Source: Ceratodon purpureus (lineage: Eukaryota > Streptophyta > Bryopsida > Pseudoditrichales > Ditrichaceae). From it: a DNA stretch of 64,000 bases. Shown piece after piece: positions 1 through 48,022 of the stretch. Positions within the stretch are counted from its first letter, which is position 1. Every line of letters starts with the position of its first letter. The stretch spans positions 32,698,636 to 32,762,635 of the forward strand of contig CM026426.1 of assembly GCA_014871385.1 (NCBI GenBank). Reading direction: 5' to 3'. The position numbers were made by a program, and so were the translations under genes. The notes under the pieces were generated by a model. The model had not been told where the DNA came from. It searched no databases and was given only the letters and a program-made list of their open reading frames with translations.

Positions 1-3000
1 ATGCTGGGCAAGTGCAACCAGGGTAAGAACTGATGGTAATCTGGTACCGCGTGATGTGTGGAGCGACGCCCGAATCCAGCCCAATGATGCAACCGTGGCC
101 CGGCTCAGGTATCATGGTGACGGAACGGAGGCGCGCTTTAAGAGACTCGGAGGAGCCCATGGAGAGTCGCTGCGCTTGATTGGGACGAGTGGCAGTGCGC
201 TTCACCATCTTGCCGTCTCTCTTGCCTGGGTAGCGGTCAGCGTCTGCAGGGACTAGCACCGAGCTGAGATTTGCAGGAGGCGGGGCAGAAGAGAACAGGC
301 GTCTTGGGGAGACCGGTTTCTTCGGCGGAAGTTGAAAGCCCGCTGCTTCGAGGGCTATAATCTCAGTCAGTTTTAGGTTAGTACCTAGTTTCACTGGCCA
401 GACCTCTGGAATGGAGGGGAATTCCTGGTCCTTTGAGTAGTGTGCTACCCACTTGCGCTTAGAGCCTTTCACGCAGCGCTCAATATCGTCGGAGCAGAAG
501 AAGAACTCAGTCTTCTCGACTAGGTTCCTGCGATAGTTAGTCCAGAGCCCAGTGTAGGTCGGTGCAGCTGTGCAATGGGGCCCTCTGAGGATTCTCTCAG
601 TGCACTTCTTCTTCGTTTCAGCTCTTTGGGTCCAGCAGCACTTCGCAGAAAGTTTGTGTAGTCTCGAAATGTGCCACTCCTTCACGTCCACCTTGGTTTC
701 TTCAACCGCGTTGACATGGCGAATGCCGCCCTTGTTCACAGGTGAAGGTAAAGGGGAATGAACTTCCTGGGCAGGAGGTTGCGTACATTGTCCCTCGGTG
801 TCGTATTCGGAGTTGTCTTCCACAATGACGAGCATCTGCATAAGGCGAGCCCTGACGGCACGTCTTGGGCCTTTTGGGCGTGAGAAGTTTGTCTTGTCCG
901 GGCGATGAGACTCCTCGTCAGCTCCGATAAGGACGTCGGCTTTTCGCTTCTGAAAACCGAAGACTTCCGCTCCAGGCATGATAAGCTAGCGGGTGCAGAA
1001 CTCATCCGCGCCTGGCATATCGAGCATGGGCTTGTTGAGCAGTGTAGGATTTCCCCATTTCTTCGCGTTCCGTTCAGCCATCCGGAGCCTGAGTTCCTTC
1101 TTGGATGGTCCTGTTCCGCCGGCGTCACATTTGAGGAACTGGTAGTAGTTGACAACCTGTAGAAAAGCCCGAACGAAATCGTCCACGGTAGCAACGTATA
1201 GGTCGTTCCCATTGTTTCCTGAAGCTTGGAGCCACTTGTTGTGAACTGTTTAGGCGAGGTTACAGGTGGGCATCTCTGTGAGTTCTTCTTTCGTGAATTT
1301 CTGCAGATTTGGCAGTAGGTGCCGTTAGATTCACGGATTAGAGTTTTGTAGGTTAGGGCTAGGAAAGCAGTATCAAAAACATCAAAACAAAGTGCAGAGA
1401 TAATACCTCGGTCATGAATCCCCCCCACTGGCGGAAGCGGTGGTGCCAGAATGACAGCCACTGATCGAGTTTGATGAGCCCGCTCTCGCCAACGACCCCG
1501 GTGGATGCCCACCATGCTCGCAACGCGTGGTACAGAGTTTCCGCCTCTGCCATGCTGGTCGCATTCTTGTACTGAGTGCACATCTTCTTGTGCTGTTCCC
1601 AGAGTTCTTCGGGGAAGTGCTTCTCCGTATACGCCACCATGTTCTGAGTCCAGTGGAACAAGCACGACCTCTCCCGGTCCTCCATTGGGTCCTCTTTCTT
1701 GCCATTGCCGTAAAGGATTCGCACTGCATTCCAATTCGCCTGTGCGTTATCCGCCATGAACCCCTTGAAGTTCGGCGCTGCAACGCCATTGATCTCCGTG
1801 ACCAGGTTCAGGTTTTTCCAGAAGACGAGCTGGGCGTCCGTGTCCTCAGACTGCATGTCGCAAGTAGCGATTGTCATCACGCGGCAGTAGGTGGCGTCGT
1901 ACACATGGCACGCCATGGTCGACCAGTCTTTGACGCGTTTGACATGGTCGAACATGATCCATGCGTTCTCCAAGTCGCCACCAGCTTGCATACGGCTGAC
2001 CAAGTCGACACCACTTCCCGGCCCGACCTCCGACATCTTGAAGACGAAGACTTTGTCACGCATAGATCCGTGACCAGGAAACCTATTCTCCTGGACATAC
2101 GCCCAGAGACTGTTACCACGGAGCTTGGTGATACCGTCCATGATTCCGTACCTGTTGAATTTTTTGAAGGTGGCGACTTTGATGCGGATGTTTGGTGACG
2201 CCATGTCTTTGCATCGATCAAGAACAGGAACCAGCTCCTCCATCGTCAGCTTCCTCGGTGGTGCATCCTCGGGCTGTAGCAGGTAGCTCCCGATGAGGAG
2301 TTTGCTCGCCTCCAGGACAACGGCGCTCTTTGTTGCTTTGTTGTTCATCTCTACCTGTTCTTCTATTAAGCTACTAATCTCTGCTTTAGAGTCTCTGTAG
2401 TCTCCAACTTTCAGTGGATGATCATGTGTTCCTATGTGAATACAAGCTCTTGTCTGATTCGGTTTGCCCACAACATAATAAATCTTAGCCTCGCATGTAG
2501 CTACACATGATGGAGGTTCTTTACATACGTTGCACACTAGCGTGGAGTCAGATGGAGGAGGCTGGTCCATGACAAAAGCTTGCAGGGTACAGCCTTCGAA
2601 CTCAGTCTCGTTAACCTCGAAGATCTTGGGAACACGCTTCAGGAAGTCACACTCCTTGTTGCTGCAGCGCAGCCATCCGACGCAGGTGGAACTTCGAAAA
2701 GAGAGTCCGAAGTCGTTTTTGATGTTTGTTGTGATGGTCTTGGTCCACAAGTGTCCGTCGTATCGTTTGTCCATTCCCTGCATTGACTTGGCGGCGAGCT
2801 TAGAGGATCCTGCAGCAGCTGGGGGCAACTCAAAAAGAACCGGACCATCAAACTTCGCAGGCAAGTACTCTACTCTCTCGTGTCTAATAGTAGAATAGTC
2901 TATCTTCTTCAAAATGTTTTTGGACCCACGCGTCTTAGCAATCTCTTTAAGGAGCGGAACAATGCTAACTGTGACCTGGGACAATGGAGGAGACACATTG

Positions 3001-3563
3001 GAAGGAGGAGCATCTGCGTGGACCTTAGGCACCAACTTCACGGGACTGACTTCGTCATCAGAAGAGAGAGATATGACGGTCGGAGGAGGTTTCTCTACAT
3101 CTGAAGTCTCGGTACCAGGCTCGACTTTGACTTTGACATCACGAGGTAAGGGAGTCTGAATTGTGCAAGTAGAAGAGCGACGGGGGGTGAGGATCTCAGT
3201 GGATGCAGCCATAAGAGAATCAGTAAGACCATAGACTCTATAGGATCCAGGGAGGAGTCTCCACTGCAACATGTTGTTCTCATCTCTCACTGAAGGTTGC
3301 CCGAGAGTGTGGGTAACCTCGGCAGTAACGTCATCAAAGATCTCCTCCTCTATACTGATGGAATCCTCACGGAAATGGAATCTGAGACTGAGGCGAAGAG
3401 AGGACACCGTAGCTAGACCGTCGTCATCTACGCGAAACCTAAGAGGGATGCCCATGCCTTGGGCGTACAGACAGACCATCCCCATATTCGCAGGCAACTC
3501 AGATATACTAGAGGAAGAACGAAGAAGAGTGAGTGTACCAGCCAAGCGGTATTGCGAGAGCAA
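1..3563 (-). pseudogene. MULE-type transposase of the large element, left-truncated by the window and broken by two stops
   Basis: The first exon runs 3563-1407; the first ATG in this frame is at 3485. A 106-bp intron (1406-1301, GTATTA donor, TCTGCAG acceptor) leads in phase to a second exon that stays in one frame to base 1. A zinc-binding stretch (WLRCSNKECDF, then THDHP) resembles the WRKY/GCM1-FLYWCH type found in MULE transposases. The catalytic core shows YDATYC (first Asp), MADNAQANW (second Asp) and CLFHWTQN. The frame ends in YPGCTCPA, the start of a SWIM finger, so the C-terminus lies beyond the left edge. Two in-frame stops interrupt exon 2: TAA at 1252-1250 and TAG at 988-986. 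Sequence continues recognisably past both. It is transcribed divergently from cargo gene A. Family assignment rests on motif order and is solid; the exact start is uncertain. Confidence 0.85.
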
Positions 3564-3599
3564 AGTGAGAGGAATGAAGCATTGCTGTTGATCATTTTA

Positions 3600-4251
3600 T
3601 TCAAATTGGAATGTCCATGTGGACGACTAGGTAATGATTCTTTCTGCTACGTAACGAATGTATGATTAAAGAGAGACGGCGCTAACGGATTAGAATGTGC
3701 TTTTTGCAGGCCCATAAATATGTGGTAAGATTTTCAGAATATTGCTTTAAGTGTTTAAATCGTGGAGCAGATTCTATTTTTTATGGGGTGTGATTGGATT
3801 AAAAAGAGCCGTCTTTTCCTTCTGCATTTAAAACAATAAATATATAGAATTTGAATTAATCATATTCATGCATTAGTTATATATGTATAGGACTAATGCA
3901 CGCATATGATTTATTCAAATTCTATATTTTATGCAGTGTTAGGGTTCCTCAATTTTCATAATAGATTGCTGGACAGACAGACTGTGAGTGAGATTAGAGT
4001 GAGCCGTCACTTGCATCCATATTTAATACAAGTATTCCTGTGCTTAATTCAAATCTTTTAATATTTTGTGGACTTGGTTTATTCTCTTCAAATATAGATT
4101 GATCTCATCAGCTTTATTTTAAAATGCATTTTATTTATAGTTTTCATTAATACAAGTAGGTTTAGAATATGGGAAGTATTTAGGGCTGAGTCAGGGGGGC
4201 TGAAGGTTTGGGATACATAAGTTAGAGGGAAGTTAGGAGGAGAACTATATT
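3600..4251. promoter_or_regulatory. Bidirectional intergenic promoter region of the large element
   Basis: This 650-bp gap separates the divergent transposase and cargo gene A. It holds a near-perfect palindrome (about 3837-3931, arms near 36-39 bp around a 14-bp AT centre). A GAGCCGTCTTTT word lies at 3806-3817 and is found again in the matching gap of copy 2 (38145-38156). A TATA-like ATACATAAG lies at 4213-4221, where copy 2 has a better TATATAAG. The flanking GTTxxAGGGAAGTT is shared by both copies. That these are transcription signals is inferred from position and conservation. Confidence 0.55.
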
Positions 4252-6462
4252 GTGAGGAGACTTCTCTCGTTAGTTAGACATATGAAGGACAGTGGAGGGT
4301 CAGCTCCCTCCACTTATGTCACTCCTAGGCGTAGAAGAAAACCAGGTGGTACAGATTTTACTAACAGGAGATTGAGGAAGAGGAGAGAATTACGTAGGAA
4401 GTCAAAGTCGAAAGGCAACCTCTTGAGTGCACCTCTAAAGGTTCGAGGAGCTGGGCTGCCTGTGGCAATTAAATTTTGTAGCATCCGTAAACTCATTCTA
4501 GAGTCCATAGTAGAGGCGGAAGATGAGGATTTAGAGGATACCGCAGTTGAGCATGACGAGCATGAAGTAATAAGTAGCGGAGAGAAACATCTGGAGATGA
4601 CGGAAGAGCTAGGGTTCAATTGCAGTCCGACTTTGGAGACACCGCAACCTTCTTTCGGATTCAAGGAGTGTTCAACAAGAGGGACGGATTCTCAGTCAGG
4701 TGACCATGCTAATACGGATGTGGTAAGTTTTATAATCCATAAATTTGAAAATGCTAAATGTAAATTATGTATTTTGGTAGAGTTATATTTGGTGAGAATT
4801 AATGTCTTTGCTGCGGGTTCGTTGTTTTACTGTTTAGAATAGTGAAGCTGCATAAAACTGAACGGTTGTTCAAAATAATAGTGGAGTAGTAATTCTCGGC
4901 TTAGTCGTAAAAATTTGCGCAGACTGGCGACTGCTTTAGGATTGAGCAAGATGTTTTAGAGGAGAAGACGCCAGAAGTGGATACGGGCCAAGAGTCAGAT
5001 CATGAGACGTTGAGAAAAGTCGCTAGGAGAGCGAGACGCCAAATTATGGAGGCGGGCGAAGGTGGGGAAGCAGTTGCTGCTATACGAGCGGGGCGAGGGC
5101 ACCCTGGAAGTCCTACTGAAACTAGTGGGGAGGATAGTGATTCGCTCGACATTGCGGTAGGTCGAGGAGAAGAGGACATGGATGAGGGGTCGGCCCGAGG
5201 GAGAGGTCGAAGGGCTGAGGTGAGGGGTCGAGGGAGGGGTAAGGGTCAAGGTGGGAGAGGGAAAGGCTCTTCGCAAGCCCCAGTGCAGCATACAGCCGCG
5301 GCCCAAGGAGAGATCGTGAAGGAGATGGAGGGGCGAGGAGCGGAGCGTGAGGAGGAGGAGATGGCGAGTGAGCAAGGTGCCTCAGACCGTGGCCCTCCAA
5401 CAGATGAGGTGAGGTTTCGTGTTTGGCTGCGATTGTTGTTAAAATCTTGGGTTGTTGCGGTTGTGCGTGTGAGTGGAAAGAGAGAGAATGTTGAAGCAGC
5501 GAGTGCTGCAGTCGCGAAGGCCGCGAAGGAATTTGTGAGGTAGGAGATGTTGAATGCGGGGGTGGCTGCTCCAAGCTCTTTTGGAGAGGCCATGGCCGCC
5601 CCCCTTGCGGTCCGCATTGGAGCAGTAGAGGGAGAGTGGGCAGTAGCAGCCCCGGGGGGAGGAGCCCCCGCAGCACCGCATTCGGAGCCGACACTCCCCC
5701 ATGAGGAGGGGGAGGAATCGGGGGGGAGGGTGCTGATTTGAAAGATCAAAATAATTCTTCCTGTTGAATAATTGATTTGTTAAATTCGGTAGTCTTTGCT
5801 TTATATTTTTTATTTGCTGTTATGTGTATTTTTCTTATAATTTGATTTTCCTTTGTATTGTAGGAGCTGACAGAGCAATTCACCGCAAGTGACTTTGATG
5901 GCCCAACTCCAGCAGAAACTGAGGTAAGTTGTTCGACTTTGCCTTCTGGATTGAACATAGCATTATTTATTGAACTTCGATAATCATTTGTTTTTTTTTC
6001 TTCTGAAGGCTTAGATGGGAATCTGACAATGTCTTTGTTATTTTTCTCTAGGTATTCTCAGATGCACCCTTGTCCATCAGTTCCCCGACCTCCGTGATCA
6101 ATGTTTCCGACCTCTCAGATTCATTTGATCAGCCCCATTTGTGTAGGTGTGATTTAGGAATCCCTGTGGGTGTAGGTAGTGGACCTCTCCAGGTCCACTC
6201 TCCTCAGTACATGCCTACTTCTCCTGTCTATGAACCTACATCCCCTGGCTACATGCCTACCTCTCCAAGACTTGGGATCCCGCCTATGTCTCCACCTTCT
6301 CCATCCTCGCCCATTAGAGTGAGGAGGCCAGCCCATGTTGTCTTCGCCCTCCCAGCGATATTGCGATGCCCTGTCCAACAAACCAGGCGATTTTGGAAGA
6401 GGCCCCGTCACTGGAACTGTAGACAGGCTAGGGAGTATTATAGTCGTGCACGACGCACATAG
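4252..6462 (+). CDS. Cargo gene A: basic, RG-rich protein with RNA polymerase II CTD-like heptads (4 exons)
   Basis: Exons are 4252-4722, 4923-5408, 5864-5923 and 6052-6462, all joined in phase 0 with canonical GT-AG sites. The first ATG is 4282, giving about 465 residues; a GTG at 4252 only extends the open frame. The N-terminus is Arg/Lys-rich with a conserved core (RGAGLPVAIKFCSI) also kept in copy 2. Exon 2 encodes acidic and RGRGRG-like stretches. Exon 4 encodes three contiguous heptads at residues about 382-402 (YMPTSPV, YEPTSPG, YMPTSPR), matching Y-x-P-T-S-P-x, followed by Ser-Pro pairs. The C-terminus is basic and aromatic, and its stop position is conserved in copy 2. No catalytic domain is seen. 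A nuclear, nucleic-acid-binding, transcription-linked role is inference. It lies between the bidirectional promoter and gene B on the same strand. Confidence 0.75.
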
Positions 6463-6632
6463 TGGCCTAAGCTCTACTTATTTCTGCTGCAGCTATTTGT
6501 GTTCTCAAATGATATGTACCAGTCTGAGAAGTAATTCTTATATTCTACATTATTGTTTTTGATTTGCTTACGATCAATATCTTTGAATCAACTCTAAAAA
6601 CGTTTGACCTTTGACACGTAACTCAAACACAG
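6463..6632 (+). other. Spacer between cargo genes A and B
   Basis: The spacer contains no ORF of note. A strong acceptor (ACACAG at 6627-6632) opens gene B's first recognisable coding exon. The frame has a stop at 6612-6614 and no ATG between, so gene B must have an upstream leader exon that I cannot place, or start at the in-frame ATG 6792. Confidence 0.5.
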
Positions 6633-9600
6633 GATCAGTTGCCAGCGCCATCTTGTCCTACTGAATTGACGAATGCAGTGGACAGTGAATTGGAACACAG
6701 AAAACATTTCAAAGCGGACTCTACAACCGTCATCAACGATCTCCGAATACTCCCAAAGACGAAGTCCCGTATCCTCGTACCCCTCTGCAGGATGCAGTCA
6801 ATGGCAAGAGTGCGACCTGTAGGAGAAATGGGAGTTCAGCATTTGGAGCCAGAGTTTGTCAATGGATATAGAGATGGTGACCGGGTCATGTACATTTCCA
6901 TGTACAACCACGAGGAGAAGACAGCGGAAGTCACGCCTGAGATCAAGGCTGACTGGAGCCCTTGTTGGCAGAAAGTCAACGATGCTTTCGAGGATGAGCT
7001 CTTGGCCGACCCGGACTGGAAGGAGTTCTCTGGAAAGATGTTCTATGTCTGGGAAGGTAACCATCGCCTTGCCGCATGGTATAGACATATTAACAACCAT
7101 CACTATGATGATCCAGCTTGGCACATCTCCGTGCATTGCATTGTTCTTGACCCACGCGGTCATGTGGGAAACCTTCTTCATGCCATGCACGACATCAACT
7201 GGTAAGCATTTTTTCCATACTTCTTGTCCTCACTTCTTGAAAGCTGCTTGAACTTGCACTACACGGCTTTTACTAACTACATATCCTCATGCAGGTCTAC
7301 AGAGAATGATCACGTGAAGAGTAATCTCCCTGCAAAACTCTTTCGTATTCGCTCTTTTGGTGTGATGAAATTGGAGGAATTCAAGGATCTGCTCTCACCA
7401 GCGGAGTATCAAATATGTTTGAATCACAAACCATCAATTCCTGGATGGTTTACTTTGCCAACCAAAATCTTCATCGCATTTCTTTATCGTGTAAGCACTT
7501 TCCCACCGCCCCCCACGCTTCTAAATGTCATGAATTGCCATGCTCTTTACACTCAGAAGTTGATAATTTTATTTTCCAGAGAGAAATCGTGGTTGCTTCT
7601 AACGAAGCTGCCCGGACCTACAAGGAGAAGACACCCATAACAGAGCAAACGGCAGCAGGGGTATGGGATGCCATGTCTGCCGCTTCGTCCAGCATGGTCG
7701 ACCACATTAAGAAGAAGGACTTCACCAAGTACCTCGCCATTGCCAATCCCAAAAACGGTGATGACTTCCTCGCAGAGGTTAGTTTCTTCACATCTCTACT
7801 TTACTTTTGAATAAGTAATTTAAACACTAACCTTCCCGTTCATGTAATGTTCACTTCCCAGATCAATCGGCATTACAGTGAATTCTCCAAGCCGGAGATG
7901 ACAGTGGAGAAGCTTCAGAAGATTGTTCCTGCAGCTGTTGATGCAAAGTTCAAAGCGTGTTGGCTGAGGTGGTGGAACTCTTCACCAAGTGCACGACAAT
8001 CTTACAGATTTTTGCCCCTGGACTTTAAGGAGGCCGACTTCGACCCTTGGTTGAACAAGGCAACATTCTGGGCTGGGGTATAGTTCCTTCAAACTTTATA
8101 AAAAATACTAAAACCACTTCTTCTTTGCACCACGTCAATATTTATCTCAACGACTTTACCTTTCTGTCGCAGATAGAGGATGCTGTTACCCGGGAGTTTG
8201 ATGACATCTGCAAGACCGAGAACCTTGTCATCAAGTGGAAGTCCTTCCCGGGACTGTTAAGGCCAGACGCATATGTGGAGAGTTGGCGAATTCTCCTCTG
8301 GGAAAAGGCTTTCCCCGCATTTATTAGTACCCGCGCAGAAAAACCTTTTGATAAGAAGTCTGATTTTTCCACTTACCCGAGAGCAGCAGATGTTGTTAAG
8401 CGTGTGACATACCGGTATGACTTTTATGCACTTCGAATTTTTATCTTTTTTCCTTTTTGCTTTTATTTACTGTCAATACTATGATTCTGATCAATGGCAC
8501 TTGATTTTCATTAGGTACTTCAAGAGAGAGCTGCTTCCAAAAGGTGCAATTGACCCTGAGAAGTTCCCTTCATACTTCGCCTCATGGATTCAGAAAGGTT
8601 CTGATCAGTGTATCTATACTCCTCTGCAGCTGAGGAGGTACAGCTCTCCGCACCTAGCCGCTGGTTGTTGGTACCTCGATTGCATTCGAGGTTTCGTTGT
8701 TGAGTCTGAAGCGGAGCTCAAAGCTGAGCTTGACGGGGGATCAATAGCCATCGACGATTCTGGAGACGGTTCTGATGAGGCCGAAGGCCTCCAGGATCAA
8801 TCATCTGCACCTCCACCGAAGAAAGGGCGGGTGCGGCGACTGCGAAAGCTGGGTGCTACGTCCCAGGGCTCTCAGGAGACTGGTGCAGAGTCCTCCGCAC
8901 CGGAGAAGGGCGCTGCCGTTCCATCTCCTGTGATTGTCGTTCCCAATCCGTCCCCTACTCTTGCGCCTTCATCGGTCAGTGCATCCGCTATCACCAGAGG
9001 TCTTCTGGAACAAAAGAAGGCCAGACTTCTCCCGGCAAGCACCTCCTCCGCAGGAACTCTCCATTCCACTGGTGTTTCTATCATCAAGTCATCCGTGACC
9101 CCGTTACTGGTTCGTAACATGGAGCTCAAAGACAAGGGTGGCCATCCGGATTGGGTGAAAACTCTAGAGTTCGTGCGCAAGGTATGATTCTCTTCTTACA
9201 TAATTCGATATTACATACACTTCAATTAATTTCATATAGTCTAACCCTATAGCGTTGTTTCTCCAGTTTGGACGTGGCCGCCAGAACGAAGTTCCTGAGC
9301 GGTGCCAGGATGAGAATCATCTGGGAGTCGACTTGATCATCGTTGACATCCCTGAGAATCTTCCTGTCCCTCTCGTTTCCGATCCTCCTACCGTGATTCC
9401 TCCTTGGAACTCCCGTGAAAAGGATTATGTGTACGACATTTTCTATTTCGCAAGTCTTTACTTGCAAAATGATGGCGCTCTGTGCATCATCTACAACAAT
9501 GATCAAGCGTTGGCTACGGAGATTCTTGAAGAAGCTAGCGCCACTAAGTTCGTCCTTTACAAAGACTGGTGGGGCTTCAATGAGCTCGGCCTGACTTCTC

Positions 9601-10625
9601 CTACGAACCCCGGAAACCTGGTAATTTCATCCTTTCCTTTCCTTCAGTTTACTTAGTACTATCCCTTCCGTTTATTCATTCTGACATAATTTGGTTGATT
9701 GCAGACTAATCGGTTCTGGATCCGGGTCTTCGTTCGTGGTGGCGAGCCGCCATCTAAGTTCTCCTTTCAAACGAAGAAATCCGATGTCATACATGGCGAC
9801 CTCAACATTACCGAGAGTGATGCGATTTTCAACTTTATCGACGTTGATTCTCAGCAAATGAATGGGGGTGTTCCATGGAGAGGGCCAAGGGAAAAATCCC
9901 CTGGGATGATGCAGAGCATAATTGGAGAGCTCTCGAAGCCCGGCGACATAGTCCTGGACTGGAAGGCAGGAACAGGTAACCGTTCTTACATGTTTCTACA
10001 AAATTATTTCTCTGATTCCTTCCTCAGTTTCTCACGTCTTCACCTTGCTTTGAGTTGCAGGGGCCTCTGTCAAGGCTTGCCAGGCTATTGGTCGTCATAT
10101 TATAGCTTTTGAGGATGACGAAGCCATATTCAACGCCCTTCTCAAACCGTATATGGCAGCAAAATCTCCCATGGGCCCCCCTAAACATCCTAGACCGGCA
10201 GCAGCAGAGGAAGCAACAGCAAAGAAACAAAGACCCACTAAGTATTGTAAGTCTTACTCTAGAATTTGTAGGTTTCGTGCAATGCATCTAGTATTATTTC
10301 TGTACGCAAATTTACCTATTCGTTCTAACCACTTCTGGCTTTCTATTGCAGAGTAGTTGTGACAATACCGCCAAGTGGGCATAGAGCCGTGTTCACTCCA
10401 TCGTGGCGTCTTAATTCCAGCCCGGTTCAGCCTTTTATTCTTCCGGACTATGCAGAGGGCTTAGCACAAGCGCTTCAATGTGGTGCACTTAGATATGTTC
10501 CTAGTCGGCCCACTAATTTTGATCCCAGGGCCCTTCTATTTGTCGATGAAGAGGCTGTAGAAGGAGAGTCTGAGTCATCGGGTTCTGAGAGTGGAAGTAG
10601 CGACTGTAGCATCTTCGAAGTTTGA
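6633..10625 (+). CDS. Cargo gene B: ParB-like domain fused to a beta-class amino-methyltransferase-like domain (10 exons)
   Basis: Exons are 6633-7201, 7295-7490, 7580-7777, 7862-8077, 8173-8414, 8515-9181, 9267-9620, 9705-9975, 10061-10246 and 10357-10625. Together they give an unbroken frame of about 1,055 residues with GT-AG introns of 80-110 bp. Residues about 45-190 hold a ParB/sulfiredoxin-like domain with the box WEGNHRLAAW near residue 140. A helical middle and a low-complexity linker follow (about 480-690). The C-terminal part has DLIIVDIPEN (718-727, position of the DPPY motif) and then GDIVLDWKAGTG (about 894-905, SAM-binding motif I) with FEDDE after it. This IV-then-I order is typical of beta-class N4/N6 MTases. 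The catalytic motif is DIPE rather than D/S/N-PP-Y/W, so activity is doubtful. Copy 2 shows the same exon pattern and also preserves coding upstream of ATG 6792. Confidence 0.85.
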
Positions 10626-10899
10626 AAGAGGCCTCGCTCTATCATTGTTTCCATTTAATTTGATTTGATTTCAGTGGAGTTGATTACATACTGCATCGTC
10701 TACTCTATTGCAAAGCACTAAAATATTCATGATTCTCATTTCCAGTTTATACTCGTGTATACCTTGCCTCCTTTATGTTCTGTGAAAGTTGTTTTTTTCC
10801 TTGTGCATTTACATAATCCTATGAAAGAATTATTTGTTTGATCTAAAACTCAACGCCTGATCATTGTATCTTGCCCAAACCCATGATAAATCTAAATGA

Positions 10900-11170
10900 A
10901 TGTATGCATGACGTCATCATGACATCAGCCCTAATTTGTATCTTTGAGAACAAACGTAATAAATTCTTACCAGAGATATTCCTAATTTCCACGATAATAT
11001 ACTCTTTTTCTAAAAAAAGTGTCAAAATTAAGCCTTAATTTAGTAATTTTCCACGGTTATAGGGTCTACTTTGCTTTTGAAAATTTTCCTAATTGTCAAT
11101 TCTGTGCTCTCCATTCTGCGCTCACCGCTCTCCGCTCTACGCTCTCCGCTCACGTACGAACTTTCCCCCA
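10900..11170 (+). repeat. Right terminus of the large element, copy 1
   Basis: Sequence downstream of gene B matches 48170-48439 in copy 2, including a TGACGTCAT palindrome near 10909 followed by GACATCAGCCCTAATTTGTA. A run of degenerate CTCCGCT units lies at about 11105-11152. Similarity stops abruptly after CTTTCCCCCA (11161-11170). Read inward, the end is TGGGGGAAAG. Beyond it lies gypsy retrotransposon sequence that is absent at copy 2, so this is the element boundary. Confidence 0.75.
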
Positions 11171-14100
11171 GTCCAACCTATCATATACATATTCCCTTTC
11201 AACAAATTTGTCGAAGGAGCAGCTATTTCAAACATTCATATGACATTTCTTCTAAGATAGCTTACAAGACCTAAGAATCTTCTAACCTTTCTCTTGTCTT
11301 TTGGTATCAAGTACGCAACAACTAATTTGACCTTCGCAGAATCTAATGAGATTTTCTCATCCAAAATGATATGACCAAGAAATTTAATACTAGATGTAAA
11401 AAAAGTACACTTACTTAGCTTAGATTATAGTTTATTTGCTTTCAAAATTTCAATGTTTTGTTTTAGATGTTGTTTATGTTCTTCTACAGTCTTGGAATGT
11501 ATGAGAATATCATCTATAAAAATACAAACAAGAATTTACTTAAGTAATCACAAAATAATAAATTTATCAAAGTCCTAAATGTAGCGGAATTTAATTTGAG
11601 TAGAATTTGAGCTTAATGATAATCACTCTTTAAATCTATTTACAAATATATTTTTGATTAATATAAGTGATAAAAAACATCAGCAGTATGCAACAAAGGA
11701 AATCCTATTCCTAATTATGAGTTTATTTAGACCTTGATAATCTAAACATAATCTTAACCTCTAAAGTTCCTTGACTATGTTTCACCAAAAAACGCTCCAA
11801 AACTGCCATTTCTAATATAAAAAACATGAATGACTAAAAAATCATTATTTTCTAATTCTAACCGTATGATCTTCAACTAGATTATTGTAATAGAGTGCTC
11901 AAGAAATTTCAATATAATTGACCGTAGAGATTAGAAGACTAAAGCAATTGAAATTTAAAAACAAACTTTTTTGACAAGACTTTTGACTAGGTTGACACAC
12001 TCTAACTTTCTTTTTCTTAGGTTTTTTGCATAATGGTTTTTGGGGTTTTTGGTGCATGTCAAAAAAGAATAAGTTAGGTAATTGTATAAAAAAAAATTAC
12101 ATACAAAAATCAAGTGTAACATGTTGAAAACAATATTTTTATTAAATTGAATACATAAGAATGCTAAATCTTATTTCTTTCCTAGAAATTCCATTATTCA
12201 ATAAAGTTCCAATCTAAACGGTCAAAGTAAATATTGATGTCCGTATTTTAACTGAAAAAAAGGAAAAAACTAAAATAGTATTTTTCTAACTTTTATGATG
12301 GAAAGAAGATTTTTTTTTAGTACAGTGCCCGAAATGGTGAGAAAATTTTGATATTTTGTGGAGTGAACATTATGCACTCAAAGGCTTTTTTTTCTTCTCA
12401 AAACCTCAAAGATGACATCATGAAATATTTATAGACATATTCTCAGAGGTAATTGATGTATTTAGCATGGTTGCCTGAATTGCCAATTGAATAGCTTTTT
12501 CCACTTCGAGTACCATAACTATTTTTATAAATGTTCAATTGGAAAAAATAAAAATTCCCTTAAAGTTCTTGTTATGGCCTACATTCACAAAAAGTTTCAA
12601 ATAATCTCGACTTCAATTGAAGTCACACGTACATGCTCGAATTCTAAAAATGCCCATTCTAGGACAATGGTCCTTTAGGGATTAATGATCCATCTTTCTT
12701 CTTAACAAAGAGGACAAGAGCTCTCCAAAGTGATTTGTTTGGTCTAATGTAACCTTTCTTCAACAAAAGTATTTGATTTTGTAACTCAACAATCTGGACT
12801 AGAAAATGGTGATTGGATCCCTTAGCTATGGGAGCGACATCAACAATTAAATCTATAGCATGTACAACATCACTTTTAAATGGCAATGCCTTCAACTCTT
12901 CAAACAATACATCTTTAAAGTAATCCAAAAATTCATTCACTCCTTTGTTGTTCTTATTTTCATCCTTAACTTTAGTTACATGTATTAAAAATACTTTATA
13001 TATTTTTCTAATACACCATTTTATTTATAAGTGAGAAAGCAAAGGGACACTTGGTTAAGATATATCACCTCTAATGGAGAAAAGTTTACTATTGTGAAGC
13101 TTTCTGTGGACTGATCCCTCCTTGCATGCTATCCATGCATCCACTTGCTTCAGCCACGTATCCATATAACACATTATATTTAGCTCCATTCCAAATTTCA
13201 AAGTCCAACTTGTTATCCACATCTTTATTGCTTAGAGGATCCTTCAACATGCGGTGAGTTATAAAACTTGTTTGGTTGTTTAGTAGTAAAACTGAGCAAG
13301 GTTTGATAAGAACTAAAAGAAGTCCTAGCTTGTGAGCAAATGAAGTTGATATCATATTATGACTGCTACAAGAATCAATAAGAATCATAGAATTGAAAGA
13401 AGAATTCAGAAAGCTATTAATTTAGAGCACCATTGGATCTTACTCCACTTCTATGTTCAAAATAGCAGCTAAGTTAGTTAGGACTGCATCCTTGCTTGGC
13501 TCTCAATCAATTTCATCATCATCTTCTTGCTCCACCTCTAGTATTGTTGTCTTTTCCTTGGATGATGGACACTCAAAGCTTTGAAGTCTAGGCTAATAAC
13601 ACCTAAAGCATGGACTTTTCTTCACATGCTTCTCTTACTCTTCTTTGCTTAATATAGCACTACTCTTTCCTGGATTAAACTTAGAAACTTCAAAAGCATA
13701 AGAATCTTGAGAAAACTTGGCAAACTTAAAGTTTTAACTAACAGATTGATTGAACATTGAGGACCTTTTTCTCAAATAAATCTTATTCCTCTTTAACTTG
13801 CTATTAACCTCTTTCTTAAAATTCATAGCCAAACCAGAAGCATCATCTATTCAAACAAAGAATTTAATTCTATCACTTTCACCTCTATTGAGAAAATAGA
13901 CAATATGCAAATCAAATTTGGCCTTATATTAAGTGACATGCAAACAACATTCTTTCAAGTCATAGAGCCCTAGGGGCATGTCTTCTTCATGATTGCCGAA
14001 AATGAATTCTTGAAGAATCAAGAGCTTGAAGATGCTCCAAGTTTAAAGAGGTTGATCTTGTCATCATAGAGGTAACTGGAAGAAAAGAAGTCCTCGAGTA

Positions 14101-28760: not shown

Positions 28761-30723
28761 ATGAGGAGACTTCGTCGCAAGTGTAGAGGGGATTCCATGC
28801 AGCCTCACAATGGAGCAGATGCAGTGGGCCCAGAGATGTTGGAAATAGGCCCAAGCGATGTTGGAGACGGCACTGTTTCTATTGTCAAGGGAGACATTGG
28901 CAGCGATGAATTCCAAGAGCCGATTATGTTGGATGGAATTCCGGAAGATCTTCAACAACGAATGTATGCTGTGGCGCCCATGCTTAAAGGCCGTGAGGGT
29001 GTCTATGACGAGCGATTCTTCACCCTTGTTTGTGGACTTTGTAACCATGGTGTTGATGTAGACCAAGTCCAGACGGTGGCAGCTATTTCTGACGCCGAAA
29101 TTCTCACAAAGTGGTCGCCTTCATCAGACAAGTACAGGTTTGCAATTGACAACTGTGTTGACCAGGACCAAGCCGCACAGTTCTGTGAGCACTACAGGCT
29201 TGTCTATGGAGGCCACCCGACCAACAGTTCCTTTTCTATGAGGTTTTTACGGGCTTGCTATGCGACATTTGTGCACAATGTCAAGGTTGATTGGGTGGAA
29301 GAGGCTGTGAAGAGGCACAAGATTCGAATGTCCACTAAGTCCCTAAACCGCCACAAATTGGGCCCTGTGGCAATGCGGGAGCAACTTGCCTCCTTGTGCG
29401 CCGTCGTTGCTGCCAACAAAGTGGCAACTGGATTCAAGACGAGCTCCTCTAAACGACCTAAATCGCCTAAGTTGCAGAGAGATCAGGCTATACGCGAGGT
29501 AGAGACAGCCTTGAGAGATAGTTACAAGCTTCAGGAAGAAGCAATGGCTGTCCAAGACGATTTGCTGCAGACTGTGATTAAGTTGAAAGAAGGACTTCTC
29601 TCCAATGGCGAACAGATGAGTGCGATTCAAGAGGAGTATAATGAAGCTTATGCAGTGGCAAATGAGCTGAAACTAAGAGGTACCAACCAGCTGTCCGCTC
29701 AGAAGTGGCGTAAGGGAAAGGATTTATTGGAGAAGCTGATTGAAATGTCAGATTCGCAACAGAAGACGGAGGAATCTATACTAGTCATTGAGACTAGCAA
29801 GTTGCCAGAGGCTGCCAATGCAGTTGAGCGAGCAGCTCGTGCCATTGCTACCAGCAAGGAGAAGTTGCTGAACCTTCAGAATTTCACCTTGATGCTGCAA
29901 ACAAGAGCTCCATTTCTGTATCCAACAGGGACGTCATTGCCTGAGTTGCCAACAGAGTCAAAGTTGAGACTGTGCGCAGGATGTGGGCTACATGGATTTG
30001 TAGCGTGTGCTATTGTTGTCGGTTCTTGTGGGTGTGGATTTCATCCAACGTGCATTGCAGTGTTGCTACAGTTCAAGCGACCTAGTTGTCCACGCTGTTG
30101 TACGTCCTTCACTGGGGCTTGGATGGCTCAGTTTGGGCTCCCTCTTACAGCAGAGATGGAAGAGGATGTCTCCACCATGAAGAAGAGTTTGGAGGCAACA
30201 ACTCGTGGAAGTTCAAGTTCGTGTAAGTCACACTTACTACACTTTGGTATGCCATGTAGAGTATTTGCATTCTTTGTAGAAATGGCGGCTTCTTGCAATT
30301 ATTGGCTAACAGTTTTGTTTTCTCACTGGTACAAGGAAAGTGGACGCATTTCAAAAGGAGTTAGATCTGAAGACTTCAGAACTCCAGGAGTTTGCATCTG
30401 CACTAGAGGAGAAGAAGGTAGCTCACACTCATTTGCAATCCCGGATTTTGGCGTTGGAAACAGAGGATGAGCGGCTGAATTCCATGAAGGATGATATGCG
30501 GAAAAGGAGCAGACAGTTTGCTACAGCCGGAGAGCTTAAAGAGAAGGCGGGTGTAGACAAGGAGCAACGGGAGATCAGCAAAGCAATTGCTGCCAACATC
30601 GCCACGTTGGAGGCAGCCCAAGAGGAAGCAGTGAAGCTGGCATCAATCATAGAGCGCGACAGTTCAGCCATCCTATGTTCCCAAGAGCAGCTTCGCCAAC
30701 TTGAATCCAAACGTGGACAGTAG
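28761..30723 (+). CDS. Coiled-coil protein with RING-like zinc-binding motif (2 coding exons)
   Basis: The ATG at 28761 follows GGTTGCAG, so the 5' UTR is probably spliced. Exon 1 runs to a donor at TTCGT|GTAAGT (about 30222). The second exon, 30341-30723, joins in phase through an acceptor GGAAAG. The N-terminal domain has LDGIPEDLQQRM. The middle (residues about 240-400) is a long coiled coil. A Cys/His cluster follows (CAGCG, CGCGFHPTC, CPRCC), spaced like a RING/treble-clef finger. The last exon is again coiled coil (ILALETEDERLNSMK). This is the only complete member of three local relatives. A ubiquitin-ligase function would need the full RING pattern; I cannot confirm it. It may belong to a mobile element. 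Confidence 0.6.
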
Positions 30724-32178: not shown

Positions 32179-34199
32179 ATGTCTCCCTTGGGCAAGAGAT
32201 CCCAACGTCCCAACAGAAGAAAAGCGGTTTTGCCAATTGAAGCAACTGATCGTGAGGCAGTAGTTGTCAAGTCCGAGGTGCCATCACAGTGTCATACAGA
32301 GTCTACTTCGGAAGCGCCATTTGACTTAGAGGGGATTCCAACAGAGTTGAGAGAGAAGCTTGTCCTGGCTGCACCATGCTTGCAGGGTCGATCAGCTGCT
32401 GTCCACGACTAAGATTTCTTCCATAGAGTGGTAGGACTTTGCAAGGAAGGTTGTACGCCCAAAGAAGTCACAGAGAAGATGGTTCCAGCAAACACATATG
32501 AGGAGACTTGGCCGCCTGGGGAGGGTGCAAACAAGACGCGCTCCTTGCGGGACCGGTGTAAAGAATCCAAAGCACGATATTTGTATCTGAGGATGCACCA
32601 ACGAGTATATGGCGATGCTCCCGACAACAAAGCATTCAGCCAAACTTTTCTACGCGCATGTGTGTATTACTACAGTGGTGGGCAAGCCAGCAACGTCAAC
32701 TGGACTGCTGCAGCTGCAAAGGTGAATCAAGAACGCCGAGCCCATGCTGCCAACAACCCACAGAAGCTGAGTCCTCCGGCGTTGAAGCAACAGATGGCGG
32801 GCATCATCTCGGCGCTGGCAACGTATTATCATCACAATGGTGTTGGCACCGGTGCTAGGAAAGTGGATGCATTGCTAAAGGAGTTGCAGTTGCAGACTTC
32901 AAAACTCCAGCAGTCTGCATCTGCGCTAGACAAGAATAAGTTAGCTCACCTCGGTTTGCATGCCTAGATATTGGCGTTGGAAACCGAGGATGAGCGGTTG
33001 AACTCTATGAAGGAAGATCTGCGGAGAAGGAGCAAGAAGCATGCTACAGCCGGAGAGCTCCAAGAGAAGGCGGATGTAGACTAGGAGCAACGGGAGATCA
33101 TCAAAGCAATTGCTGCAAACAACGATGCATTGGAGGCCGCCCAAGAGGAAGCAGCAACGCTCGCATCAACCTTAGAGCGCGACAGTTCAGCTTACCGGAG
33201 TTCCCAACAGCAGCTGCGCCAACTCGAGAAGAATTGTGCATCTGAGAGAATTGCGCAGCATTCTATCAAGCCGAAACGCCCTGTTGGGAAGAATATGTCT
33301 GAAGTTGGCGTCCCTCAAAAAATTAACCTTGACTCAGCGTGTAGATGCTGCAACTACATCTTTGTTTTAAACAGTGCAGTGCCATATTCATGTGGTTGTT
33401 TGTTTCACCCTTGGTGCTTGTTTCCAGCGCTGATTTCGGGACGTGGCAATTGCCCTCTCTGCGGCAAACTCGTTGATGCAAGTTGGTTGGAATCATGGGG
33501 GTTTGATGGGCTGGAGCGCTCTGGTCCAGTCTCTCATGACAGCAAAGGCAAATGTCTATCGAGTCCAGAAGACTCTTGCTTTGTGAAGCGAATGAGAGAA
33601 GGTGCTGGCGATGCTCAAGGTCGACCAGCTTCAAAGGTGGCCAAAACGAAGGTCAAGGTAAAGGGTCCATCGCCTCAACCACCAATTTCTCTATTTATTC
33701 CAGCGTTCCCACATCCCAAACCACTTGCTAGCCGACCCGCTGGTAGCATACACAGTGAAGTTGTCAATGTGGCCGTTGCAACCTTGGCGCATTACAGTAA
33801 GTTTTAGTGTTTTTTTGCTCCCTCCATTTTTCAGAATTTTAGCCAAGGTTCTTTTTAGTTTAATATCATGCTTACAATTTCAGTTATGATTTAATGTGCT
33901 GGAATTGTCCATGTGTTTGTTTGGAACCGCGTTGTCTCTCTAAAGAAATAAGTACTAATGCTAGATGGGTTGCCCTCTAAACATCAAAACAAAAGCTAGA
34001 AGAGTTCAAGAGGGGGCTCCAGGAAGGTACAAGCCTTGTTCGGGACGTTGAACCATGCCCAACAGCTGCAGAGGACGTGCCAAGCCGTTCTTCCAACAAG
34101 CCAAGTAGTGGCAAGTTGCCACCAGCGCCACATTCCTCCCCAGTGTCACTGGATTTGTTGGTTGAGCAGAGCATATCGACCGTGGAGGGTTTCCCTTAG
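32179..34199 (+). pseudogene. Decayed paralogue of the coiled-coil/RING-like gene
   Basis: One frame from ATG 32179 (MSPLGKRSQRP) runs to a donor near 33796 (CATTACA|GTAAGT), then a likely last exon (about 33993-34199). It is interrupted by three in-frame stops: TAA 32410-32412, TAG 32965-32967 and TAG near 33082. Sequence similarity to the 28.8-kb gene continues across each stop (for example LETEDERLNSMK). Where the intact gene has a lysine AAG, this copy has TAG near 33082. A RING-like cluster is present (CRCC, CGCLFHPWC, CPLCGK). The single retained frame suggests recent inactivation by point mutation. Confidence 0.65.
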
Positions 34200-36837: not shown

Positions 36838-37376
36838 AGTTCCTCACTAGCAACAACATCACAGCAACAGTTGCAAGCTGATTCTTCCTAAACTCAAACA
36901 ACCAATCATCCCACATTTCCCACCCAAAATCACCGTTGACCATCTATGGTCACATCAAGGTTCATCGAACTCCGGCGCCACTACCTGTCCCGACTCTCCA
37001 GCACGTGTGATGGTGTTGCCAACAAGGACATCCACTACACAGCCTCAACACGTGTGTGGGTTTTGCCACCAAAGACAGCCAAGGCCCCGAAACCGAGGTA
37101 CACCCCACTCCCAACAAGGACACTCGATCATCTTTTTTCTATCCAGCATTATCCAGGACCACCATCCGCGATTGGCTCCCACCCATTGAAAATCTGATGT
37201 CACCGCCTTATACTCCACCATGGCAATCTGCATGTAGAATTTATTGGCAATTTTTATTTTGACAAAATCCGGATATTCCAATTTCGATTTTGGGCATCCC
37301 AGGACCTCAAATTTTCTCTAATTTTGGGCTGCCAACTACATTTCCAGTCAAATGTGGATTGTTTTGGAACAACAGG
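36838..37376. other. Sequence left of the decayed element copy
   Basis: No gene is supported. GTTGCCAACAAGGACATCC words near 37013 echo the GGCAACA units of the block to the left. The left border of element copy 2 should lie near 37385, where similarity to copy 1 stops. Confidence 0.35.
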
Positions 37377-37847
37377 TTATGCTTTCAACCGACTATTCTC
37401 CTTGTTTGAGAAGAAGGAGATGACTGGCGTTACATCCGGAGTATCCAAGCCCTGCTCTACTTTAACCTTCACATCACGAGGCAGTGGAGTCTGAATAGTA
37501 CAAGTAGATGAACGACGAGGAGTTAAAATCTTAGTAGACGCCTCCATCTGGGACTTTGTAAGACCATAAACTCTGTATCTACAGGGATATAGGTTCCAGA
37601 ATCTGTTATCGTCATCGTCTTTCTCAGAAACCTGATCAAGCTTATGTGTAATCTCATTGGTGTCATCGTCATATATCTCTTCATTAATACTAACAGTTTT
37701 CTCTCGGAAGTAGAACCTAAGGCTAAGGTGTTGCGCCTTCACAAGCGCCAACCCATCCTCGTCTACACGTACTGTAAGTGGAATACCAACACCATGAGCT
37801 TTGAGCACGGCCATGCCTAACACTCTATCTGTAGGGAGGTGCGTCAT
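37377..37847 (-). pseudogene. Truncated N-terminus of the element transposase, copy 2
   Basis: ATG at 37847. It aligns with the N-terminal region of the transposase in copy 1: GVGIPLTVRVDEDGLA against GMGIPLRFRVDDDGLA, and LTPRRSSTCTIQTPLPRDVK identical in both. Similarity ends near 37385, so the zinc-binding, catalytic and SWIM regions are missing. The remaining frame is open, so loss was by deletion rather than point mutation. Confidence 0.8.
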
Positions 37848-38309
37848 TCTCTGTTGTGAGTAGAGAGCTTGGAGTGAGACTAGACGAATTTGCGTATACA
37901 GATTGAGAGGATTAGTGCATTGTCCGTGCTCTACTTATCAGATGTCTATAACTCATTCGTCAACTTTGTAGCACAAAATCCTTAGAAGTTTGGATGTAAA
38001 GTTAATTCAAATAGTAGTATTAGTCAATTAAGGAACCGTCTTTTTCAGTTAGATCTTCGGTGCAAAGCTGTAAATTTGAAGTATTAATAACATCTGCATC
38101 ATGGTTGTAATTCGATTTGATGACTACCACTACGGTTTTAGATCGAGCCGTCTTTTGAAGGGGCAACATCTTCTACTAGTACCAGATTTTGAAGTATCTA
38201 ATCATCAATATATTTTTTTAATCCCTAACTTTAATTCAAAATGTACTTATATTTAGTTGTAAACAATATTAGTTTTAAATTAAATATCTTACTAGACAAT
38301 AATTTCTAG

Positions 38310-38331
38310 ACTGGCATTTGGGGTATATAAG
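38310..38331 (+). promoter_or_regulatory. TATA box of gene A, copy 2
   Basis: GGGTATATAAGTTGAAGGGA (from 38321) aligns with GGGATACATAAGTTAGAGGGA in copy 1. The canonical TATATAA is at 38324-38330. The upstream word GAGCCGTCTTTT (38148-38159) is also conserved. Confidence 0.6.
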
Positions 38332-40559
38332 TTGAAGGGAAGTTCTATAGAGTGTTTTATTGTGATGAGAGTTCTTACGTTGCTTAGACACATGAAGGAG
38401 AGTGGAGGGTCTACTCCCTCCACTTATAAGACACCTAAACGTAGAAGGAAACGAGGGAGCATAGACTTTACAAATAGGAAACTGAGACAGAGGAGAGTAG
38501 CACGTAAGTGGGCAGGTGTGCAGAGTGACCTTCGAAATGTACCTCTGAAGGCTCGAGGAGCTGGGCTGCCATTAGCTATAAAGTTTTGTAGCATTTGTAA
38601 ACTTATACTAGAATCTATAGTTGAAGGAGAAGAAGAGACATTAGAAGACACGGTTGCCGAGTAGGTTATACTTAGCATCGACAAAAATCAAAAGGAGATA
38701 TCGGAAGACTTGGGGTTTAATTGTCTAGGAAGTATTGAGTCACCGCAGCCTTCATTTGGTTTAAAGGACTTACATTCGAAAGAGAGAGATTCACGGTCTA
38801 AAGAGGACCGCCACTCTACTGAAGTAATTTTACTACCTTCGTTTTGCAATTCCAATTTGTATTGTTCAATTTTGAAGTTGATGGCTTCATTTTTTATGTT
38901 ATTGTCTATGTGTGGCCTACTTGTAATTGTAATTGATAAGTTTCGATGTGCTTTATAACATGCGCCTCCTTAGCCATAGTTTAGACATAATTTTTAAACC
39001 ATAAAAATTTGAATTCACCTCTCTATAGTTTTTGACTTTATCCTTTTCAAGTAGTGGACGAGGGGGGAGGCTCAAGGTTTGCTAGACAGTGCGGAGGTGT
39101 GAGGGGAGGCGATTTGGCCGCGGGAGAAGGATCAGGTGAGTCGCAGGGAGGAGGTGCAAGAGCGAGGCGTGCAATCATGGAGGAAGCAGGGCTGTAGATT
39201 GAGCCATGGCGGCCCGAGCAGGTGCTCAGCGAGGAGGGTGTCGAGGTGCGTGGCAGGGAGGTTGTGGAGGTGGGCGAGGAGCAGGGCGTGGCCGGGCTGC
39301 AGAGGAGCAGGGTTCGGAGATGGAGGAGGCCGAGCCAGGGAGGGAGGGCGGCGTGCAAGAGGGCGACCAGGGAGATGACCATGAGGAGCAAGGAGGGTAG
39401 GAGGACGACGACGACGACGAAGAGGAGGAGGAGCCCGAGAACAACGATGACGAGGTAAGCTTTCTAGAAAACCAGGAAATTTGTTGGGTTTTGTGGGTTT
39501 TGTGGTTTGCGGGTTTTCTTAGGAAGTTGGATTTAGGGTTGTTTGCTGCATTGCCCCCACCTCGTTTGCTGCATTGTCCTTTACCTTGCATCTCCGCTGT
39601 GCGCATGTAATTGGGGCTCAGAATCATGGTTTTGCGCATCTCAGAGTCTTGGTTACTGCGTTATTTCGCTAGAATTCGCTTGCTGGTTCTTGGTGGGTGC
39701 TTTTGCTTCGTGGGTTATTTTGCTTGTTATGGCTTAAGAGTCGCTTGCAATTGCTTGCTTGTGTCGGCTGAAATGGTTTGTTTTCCAGCCAGTAGCATGT
39801 TTGCTTTGCACCTGCGAGGGGGGGCTTTGATTGTTGGTAATATCACCAGCTAGCATCTCTGCTCTGCTCATCTGATTTGGGTCTTAGAATGTTGGTAAAT
39901 GTCAGAATGTCGGCTGCTGCTTGGGCTCTTAAATGATTCGGCATTTTGCCTAGGATCATACGGTTTGCTTTGCACCCAGCTTGTATCTCTACTTTGCACC
40001 TCCGATTAGGTCCTCCATGTTGGTTAGTGGGTGATTTTGCTTAAATTTCCTTCCCGGTTCTTGGTGGGTTACTTTACTTAGTGGGTTATTTTGCTTGCAT
40101 TTGCTTGAGATTCGCTCGCATTTACTTGCTTTTGCCGGCTCAATTGGTTTGCTTTGCTCCAAGCAGCATCTCTGGTTTGCACCTTCGAGGAAGGGCTTTG
40201 AATCTTGGTGTTATGTTTCCCCGTGATTTCTGGTTTGAAATGCTAATTTGTTCGCGCTATGTAGCTGACTCATGGCAGGGTAGAGGTGCTGCTGGTTGGC
40301 TTGCATTCGGCACATTCTTTTTTTGGTGTTGATGATTAACATATTTCTGCGTGAGAGTTGGTTTTTCAATCTCTTTTTTTAAATCCGTTTGTGATGGGAG
40401 CACCAAGGGGGCGCTGTCTGCTCCGACAGCGACCCCCGAGGGCTCTCAAATGATTCGGCATTTTGCCTAGGTTCACTTGGTTTGCTTGGCTGCCAGCAGC
40501 ATCGCTGCTTTGCACAACCGATTGAGGGCTCTAAATGGTGGTTTTGAAATGTGCATTCT

Positions 40560-41275: not shown

Positions 41276-41403
41276 TAAGCTTGGGTTTCAAAATGTTGGT
41301 TTCATGTTTCAGGAGTCCTCCGGGCATGAAGAGGTGAGCGGAGGTCGAGAGTCTGTTCCTGCAGAAACTGTGGTATTTAAATTCTTTCCGGTTTAACTCT
41401 TGC

Positions 41404-41459
41404 CTTGTTTTTTTTGTTTTTTTGTTTTTTTGTTTTTTTTTTGTTTTTTTGTTTTTTTC
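41404..41459 (+). repeat. (T6-10 G)n minisatellite
   Basis: Seven or so runs of T separated by single G residues, within an intron of the gene A pseudogene. Confidence 0.85.
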
Positions 41460-48020: not shown

Positions 48021-48022
48021 GT

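Follow-up and report, generated by a model that had tools for sequence, protein, structure and literature searches.

The stretch analysed here (the window) comprises 64,000 nucleotides of the moss Ceratodon purpureus, C6:32698636-32762635, and was compared with the whole assembly of 362.5 Mb in 151 contigs. Its left part is occupied by a mobile element, copy 1, which carries a transposase gene on the minus strand and two spliced genes, termed gene A and gene B, on the plus strand; a second, decayed copy lies further to the right. The C. purpureus genome has been described as ~360 Mb in size with U and V chromosomes of >100 Mb each (PMC8000587; papers are cited here and below from excerpts of their text), and because its length of 110.5 Mb fits this description, we take contig C6, which bears the window, to be the giant sex chromosome (U or V). 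The features are listed below in window coordinates, with strand and basis.

1 to 11168, no strand: in-window part of copy 1, whose first 1,880 bp precede the window; end-points common to copy 1 (c1), k2, k3, k4 and k6
1 to 1259 and on to about -190, minus: later exon(s) of the transposase, splice site approximate; from sequence
1407 to 3485, minus: first coding exon of the transposase, with zinc-finger region and catalytic core; open frame, 693 aa from the first ATG
4282 to 4722, plus: first coding exon of gene A, which encodes the basic N-terminus; from sequence, with the ATG at 4282 and a GT donor directly after the exon at 4723
4923 to 5543, plus: second exon of gene A, charged and RG-rich; open frame, stop at 5541-5543 in copy 1
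5563 to 5724, plus: remnant of the gene A tandem repeat (171 bp, 57 aa per unit), one unit; comparison of copies
5864 to 5923, plus: short exon of gene A, predicted from splice sites only; from sequence
6052 to 6462, plus: last exon of gene A, with heptads YMPTSPVYEPTSPGYMPTSP resembling the RNA polymerase II C-terminal domain (CTD); from sequence
6633 to 10625, plus: gene B, ten exons; open frame, start codon approximate
7053 to 7079, plus: ParB-like signature EGNHRLAAW in gene B; alignment of copies
9345 to 9356, plus: altered catalytic motif IV of gene B, DIPE and not DPPY; alignment of copies, PDB profile
9939 to 10126, plus: region of the S-adenosylmethionine (SAM)-binding motif I of gene B, DWKAGTG then GRHIIAFEDD, split by the intron 9976-10060; Pfam, alignment of copies, PDB profile
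11086 to 11168, no strand: right terminal region with inverted repeat (AGAGCG-type short repeats); the left end lies before the window
37362 to 48439, no strand: second, older and decayed copy, which retains the right end, gene A, gene B and part of the transposase; sequence comparison with copy 1

Ends, copies and transposase of the element

Copy 1 is a complete element of 13,048 bp that runs from window position -1879 to 11168. The original prediction, made from the window alone, had placed the element at 1 to 11170; the right end is confirmed at 11168, whereas the start lies outside the window. Copies k2, k3, k4 and k6 are homologous to positions 8057/8058 to 21104 of the c1 row, and their flanks differ. 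The terminal inverted repeat (TIR) of copy 1 measures 43 bp, with 93% identity between its left and right ends, and the 9-bp target duplication CAGTCCAAC is found on both sides of the element. Target duplications are present in all five copies in which both ends were read, being perfect over 9 bp in c1, k2 and k3, perfect over 10 bp in k6, and 10 bp long with one mismatch in k4. Mutator-like elements (MULEs) typically have target-site duplications of about 8-11 bp, and the ends of copy 1 agree with such elements in both the duplications (9-10 bp in 5/5 copies) and the TIRs.

A 301-bp piece of gene B matched at least 40 places in the genome with 93-100% identity (the best 40 of 609 first-look candidates were scored), and the eight best of these, copy 1 and k2 to k8, make up the set of young copies; k5 is without a left end, k7 is rearranged, and k8 is represented by only 10 kb, its ends lying outside the stretch read. 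All eight probes, taken from the transposase, gene A and gene B, match in each of these eight near-identical copies. For eight of the 40 gene B places, one of the listed transposase matches lies no more than 15 kb upstream and on the opposite strand, where 0.1 would be expected by chance. Given the terminal repeats, the target duplications and the presence of all three genes in 8/8 young copies, the transposase, gene A and gene B travel as one mobile unit, as had been proposed. Pack-MULEs are characterized by the absence of a transposase, which is present here in all eight young copies; the favoured classification is an autonomous Mutator-like (MULE/IS256-type) DNA transposon of moss with two accessory genes of its own.

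The minus-strand open frame of the transposase in the window encodes 745 aa, and a SWIM-type C-x-C...C-x-H pattern, recognized by eye, lies near the C-terminus and before the window, in an exon that extends from 985 to about -190. The transposase of copy 1 is imperfect, with an in-frame TAG at 986-988, and that of k3 is open across both exons. The first exon matched at least 60 places in the genome with 96-100% identity (best 60 of 2863 candidates scored), 43 of them stop-free and seven located on C6. Its database relatives are 60 proteins with 31-99% identity, none of them with a Pfam domain, and 42 of the 60 were used for an alignment (A5). An AlphaFold2 model of the core built from 43 sequences (predicted local distance difference test, pLDDT, 79.8; predicted template modelling score, pTM, 0.41) was compared by Foldseek with the PDB, where the best match was the transposase of the insertion sequence ISCth4 (E 4.8e-4, probability 1.00), followed by Hermes. 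ISCth4 belongs to the IS256 family, which is kin to MULEs; the MULE assignment also fits the C-x-C...C-x-H pattern and the target duplications. The family is a divergent MULE-type one, placed by its ends and fold and not by a Pfam profile.

Gene A, gene B and the constraint on them

Translated from its joined exons, gene A begins with a basic N-terminus, continues with a charged, RG-rich segment and a tandem repeat of 57 aa, and ends in the exon that carries the heptads; in copy 1 the open pieces are 4237-4842, 4911-5543 and 6052-6462. The second exon in k3 continues through the 57-aa repeats as an open frame of 933 aa, and the 171-bp array, a single unit in copy 1, numbers between 3 and about 22 units in the remaining seven young copies. 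The heptads, from which gene A had been called a CTD-heptad gene, are conserved in 8/8 young copies; the Pfam Rpb1 repeat scores 20.1 bits on them, just under its cut-off of 20.3. Among the divergent copies described below, they are partial in copy 2, L029 and L032 and were not found by pattern search in L033.

Gene B was correctly described as spliced. Its ten exons (6633-7201, 7295-7490, 7580-7777, 7862-8077, 8173-8414, 8515-9181, 9267-9620, 9705-9975, 10061-10246 and 10354-10625) are separated by introns that all have GT-AG borders, and this predicted splicing yields a continuous reading frame 1057 codons long. The ParB-like character of the N-terminal half rests on the GNHRxxA motif and on a full gene B paralogue at C12:14529700-14537400, which has large introns, one stop in its middle part and a ParB-like exon 45% identical to that of gene B. 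The paralogue matches DndB (PF14072) below threshold (E 0.005, 16.3 bits against a cut-off of 29.1), and DndB has been placed in the ParB superfamily (PMC10853773). A ParB label for gene B thus appears weakly supported at the level of sequence.

For the C-terminal half, the Pfam profile PF01555 matches above its cut-off (E 1.7e-7, 31.8 bits against 26.7), the NCBIfam model of CcrM gives E 0.00095, far under its own cut-off, and PDB profile matches include the M.HpyAXV/DpnA-type structure 5hfj (E 8.7e-5) and CcrM 6pbd (E 0.0017). The motifs follow the order IV then I, matching the beta class. By profile the domain is a beta-class N6-adenine/N4-cytosine methyltransferase-like one, which we do not class as an active enzyme. 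Motif IV in 16 gene B copies reads DIPE in 12, DIPK, SIPE and NIPE in one each, and is deleted in one, so that gene B is without the catalytic (D/N/S)PP(Y/F/W) consensus and PPY occurs in no copy. Methylation was probably lost and the fold kept, and the earlier proposal that the protein modifies the DNA of the element appears doubtful.

A search of gene B against 5.8 billion proteins returned no relative at E<=0.01 with the single sequence and none at E<=1 with a four-row alignment; these blanks are not counted as absence, because ten small exons are likely to be missed by length filters or gene calls. The same database yielded the 60 relatives of the long-exon transposase. No gene B relative was confirmed among the IMG/VR viral contigs, which at that sensitivity gives no sign of a viral source, and in PHROGs gene B had no match and the C12 paralogue matched one unnamed family (E 0.041).

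The second copy in the window matches copy 1 in six blocks (37362-37922, 38317-38768, 41528-41936, 42501-44786, 45120-46694 and 48029-48439) with the same order and strands, as the original prediction had stated, but its transposase is reduced to residues 5-191 of the first exon, and no match to the zinc-finger, catalytic or SWIM parts was found in this copy. Its gene B differs from that of copy 1 at a synonymous divergence (Ks) of 0.88 and contains 13 stops. A piece of this gene B found 35 of its 40 best places on C6 (40 of 756 candidates scored); C6 thus holds 35/40 of the best old-type gene B places versus 7/60 of the best near-intact transposase places. Eight of the 40 old-type places (seven on C6, one on C3) were taken for comparison, giving with copy 2 a divergent set of nine copies (copy 2 and L029 to L036). 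Within the stretch examined, the transposase was found in three of the nine, gene A in four and gene B in all nine, and the missing parts read as decay.

The ratio of nonsynonymous to synonymous divergence (Ka/Ks) was estimated with the fragments L034 and L035 left out. For the first exon of the transposase it is 0.12 and 0.16 against two divergent copies, Ks being saturated in a third comparison. In eight comparisons of gene A with four divergent copies, it is 0.23-0.27 in the first exon and 0.18-0.37 in the last one. For gene B, Ka/Ks is 0.27-0.76 against the seven young copies (Ks 0.018-0.048) and 0.21-0.37 against eight divergent copies (Ks 0.52-0.91), whose introns are 66-72% identical. 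As stops were skipped in the gene B counts and decay after insertion pushes Ka/Ks upward, the constraint on gene B is if anything understated. These ratios indicate purifying selection between subfamilies on the transposase, gene A and gene B over a long divergence.

Possible role of gene B and competing explanations

With a probability of about one half, we consider gene B to be a non-catalytic DNA-binding accessory protein of an autonomous MULE-type family, with gene A as a scaffold alongside; this is favoured over an active methylase because all three genes are constrained and the catalytic tetrad is altered. Gene B would have lost catalysis and kept the methyltransferase fold, and with its ParB-like N-terminus it would bind the DNA of the element itself, perhaps at the ends or other non-coding parts. 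The bound protein may oppose host silencing or assist transposition, an effect whose closest parallel in function would be VANC in the VANDAL MULEs of Arabidopsis (PMC10398659). Gene A would act as a disordered repeat-bearing scaffold whose CTD-like heptads may bring in transcription factors.

Several points weigh against this interpretation. Motifs are the sole basis on which catalysis is taken to be lost: on its own, the match of DIPE to DPPY lacks significance (0.2 bits), the GTG of motif I is retained, and the PF01555 match is limited to profile positions 160-218. DNA binding is predicted from sequence, and the N-terminal half of gene B matched neither the Pfam ParBc profile nor PDB sequences; the AlphaFold model of exon 1, built from one sequence, was uninformative (pLDDT 40.7) and was not used. 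The spliced transposase of 1190 aa matched no Pfam family, including those of MULE, SWIM and zinc-finger domains, at E<=10, and the Foldseek TM-scores of its core are low (0.23-0.28). Five of the nine divergent copies show gene B pieces alone, which is also compatible with gene B moving separately. The ParB-methyltransferase label of the original prediction is supported in part, for the methyltransferase half, which exceeds its Pfam cut-off.

It is doubtful that gene B is instead an active N6-adenine/N4-cytosine methyltransferase that binds and marks the DNA of the element and thereby escapes silencing, a self-marking role also suggested for the algal proteins discussed below (PMC12477816); we consider this about half as probable as the favoured interpretation. 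Purifying selection has preserved the fold and motif I, and the C12 paralogue, whose motif IV reads DQPF, spans the whole PF01555 profile (positions 2-219, 38.9 bits, E 1.2e-9). However, DQPF is also outside the (D/N/S)PP(Y/F/W) consensus, PPY is found in 0/15 gene B copies with letters at motif IV, and the change of SPPY to APPA abolished the activity of the rotifer enzyme N4CMT (PMC8885841).

The relatives of gene B elsewhere in the genome raise an unlikely alternative, namely that the ParB-like/methylase-like genes are a moss host family of the C12 type, of which the element captured one member once, long ago. A genome search with the PF01555 profile gave 32 places over the cut-off (150 scored of about 770), three of them on C6, and the C12 ParB-like exon gave 163 matches, of which 150 were listed (150 of 3059 candidates scored), 57 at 65-100% identity (the C12-type loci) and 93 at 39-44%. 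Since a C12-type exon precedes 30 of the 32 PF01555 places by 3.0-5.5 kb on the same strand, against 0.04 expected, the fusion of ParB-like and methyltransferase parts is independently confirmed at 30 loci. This arrangement, together with the large introns at the single C12 locus read and the position of 43/57 listed C12-type loci off the sex chromosome, most of them with open frames, would be expected of a host family. However, five C12-type copies on four chromosomes are 97-100% identical and share 500 bp upstream, with similarity that continues upstream of the coding exon for 1.1-1.6 kb or more; because upstream DNA is shared too, this group represents duplicated DNA larger than the gene. 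Along with tandem and dispersed younger families, it looks mobile or segmentally duplicated. The C12-type loci are dispersed and partly near-identical rather than demonstrated fixed host loci.

The original prediction also asked whether gene B relatives always lie beside the same transposase. The young copies agree with this (8/8), but the generalization is not borne out: relative to the 60 best transposase places only, 3/57 C12-type loci (with inconsistent geometry) and 2/93 loci of the 39-44% type lie within 20 kb of one. The refuting observation named in that prediction, gene B homologues mainly at fixed syntenic loci without the transposase, thus applies in part, for the distance from the transposase. 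The 93 listed places at 39-44% (e.g. C8:1736868, C5:3392419 and C13:11499128) include many equal scores on many chromosomes, and such sets read as young high-copy families that appear distinct from the window element.

Four further observations concern these relatives. Three identical C12-type ParB-exon matches at C6:19183959, C6:19188929 and C6:19193899, spaced by exactly 4,970 bp, form a tandem array on the sex chromosome. A 320-aa frame at C8:9595672-9596436, intronless and with one TGA, covers PF01555 positions 2-218 and lies 3.2 kb downstream of a C12-type exon. The only two of the 32 PF01555 places without a ParB-like exon nearby, C1:5958254-5958736 and C5:15306119-15306592, have frames of 567 and 569 aa and belong to a different methylase-like family. 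A third and strongly diverged gene B C-terminal fragment, with 29% identity, adjoins k5 at C7:104917-105475 (L019:318-876, approximate), beside retrotransposon-like open frames.

That genes A and B are host genes captured as passive passengers, of no use to the element and comparable to the cargo of Pack-MULEs, is considerably less probable. Host-gene capture is frequent in plant MULEs (PMC13317346) and gene B relatives exist elsewhere in the genome, but both genes have Ka/Ks of 0.18-0.37 between subfamilies at Ks 0.5-1.3 and are retained in 8/8 young copies. A segmental duplication or assembly artefact as the source of the two window copies, suggested by their distance of 36 kb and common order, is rejected with near certainty, as other copies across chromosomes have the same precise ends with target duplications and Ks between the copies in the window is 0.88. 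The original prediction had named a shared duplication beyond 11170 and 48439 as a ground for refutation; similarity stops at 11170/48439 (copy 1 was compared to 11500), a repeat search of the whole window found no block shared by the two copies further right, and nothing points to a larger segmental duplication.

As for the remainder of the window, minus-strand open frames at 12659-13421, to the right of copy 1, resemble a decayed Ty3/gypsy polyprotein (family judged by eye). Other repeats are a 300-nt pair at 30317-30616 and 32840-33139 (81%) and a GGCGGTGGCAACAAAGGCAGA-type short repeat at 25165, 31718 and 34827.

Extending the interpretation of gene B as a non-catalytic accessory protein, it is possible, and we suggest it tentatively, that land-plant transposons have a class of accessory proteins in which a bacterial-type ParB-like/methyltransferase fusion without catalysis acts for the element as a sequence-specific DNA-binding or chromatin factor, its partner being a rapidly evolving repeat protein in imitation of the tail of RNA polymerase II. 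This class would have spread through several dispersed families (three types, with 3059 first-look candidates for one exon) and would be among the most multiplied genes of the moss genome. If so, eukaryotic DNA transposons acquired folds of DNA-modifying enzymes on more than one occasion and in at least two superfamilies, and a fold held by selection despite an altered active site would make binding or anti-silencing testable against modification. The moss host is in principle open to reverse genetics, and the accumulation of old copies on C6 offers a clock for the history of the family.

Relation to known systems

A ParB-methyltransferase fusion spliced into a plant-type mobile element had been considered undescribed; this does not hold, as such accessory genes were reported in algal transposons, e.g. 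Sola1-1_Ec32 of Ectocarpus, with further green and red algal cases cited (PMC12477816). As described there, Sola1-1_Ec32 encodes, opposite its transposase, a protein of 1104 aa (versus 1057 codons here) with ParB-like and N4C/N6A methyltransferase domains, the former being weak in the moss protein; like the moss element it is a large DNA transposon, and its host too is haploid-dominant and has U/V sex chromosomes. The two differ in that the algal element is a Sola1 transposon and the moss element is of MULE type, and in the altered motif IV of moss gene B, the algal protein being known by description and not by sequence. The excerpt mentions no counterpart of gene A.

The VANDAL MULEs of Arabidopsis with VANC, and Kaonashi (PMC10398659, PMC13317346), resemble the moss element as MULEs with a transposase and further genes, one of which acts on related copies. 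They are called non-TIR MULEs, whereas the moss element has TIRs; VANB and VANC were compared by description only. Retrotransposons of dinoflagellates and charophytes that carry DNA methyltransferases (DNMTs) are also eukaryotic mobile elements with an acquired DNA methyltransferase gene (PMC5890265), but they carry C5-cytosine enzymes, in contrast to an amino-methyltransferase-like protein in a DNA transposon. N4CMT of bdelloid rotifers shares with gene B a bacterial-type PF01555 domain in a eukaryote and the presence of introns; it differs in being a host gene with SPPY, demonstrated activity and no transposase (PMC8885841). In the excerpts of open-licence full-text literature, which did not include the Ceratodon genome paper, no ParB-like/methyltransferase gene was reported from a MULE or a land plant, which is not proof of absence. 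As far as found, the new features are the occurrence of such a gene in a land-plant MULE, its altered motif IV, the repeat-bearing gene A that accompanies it, and the copy number.

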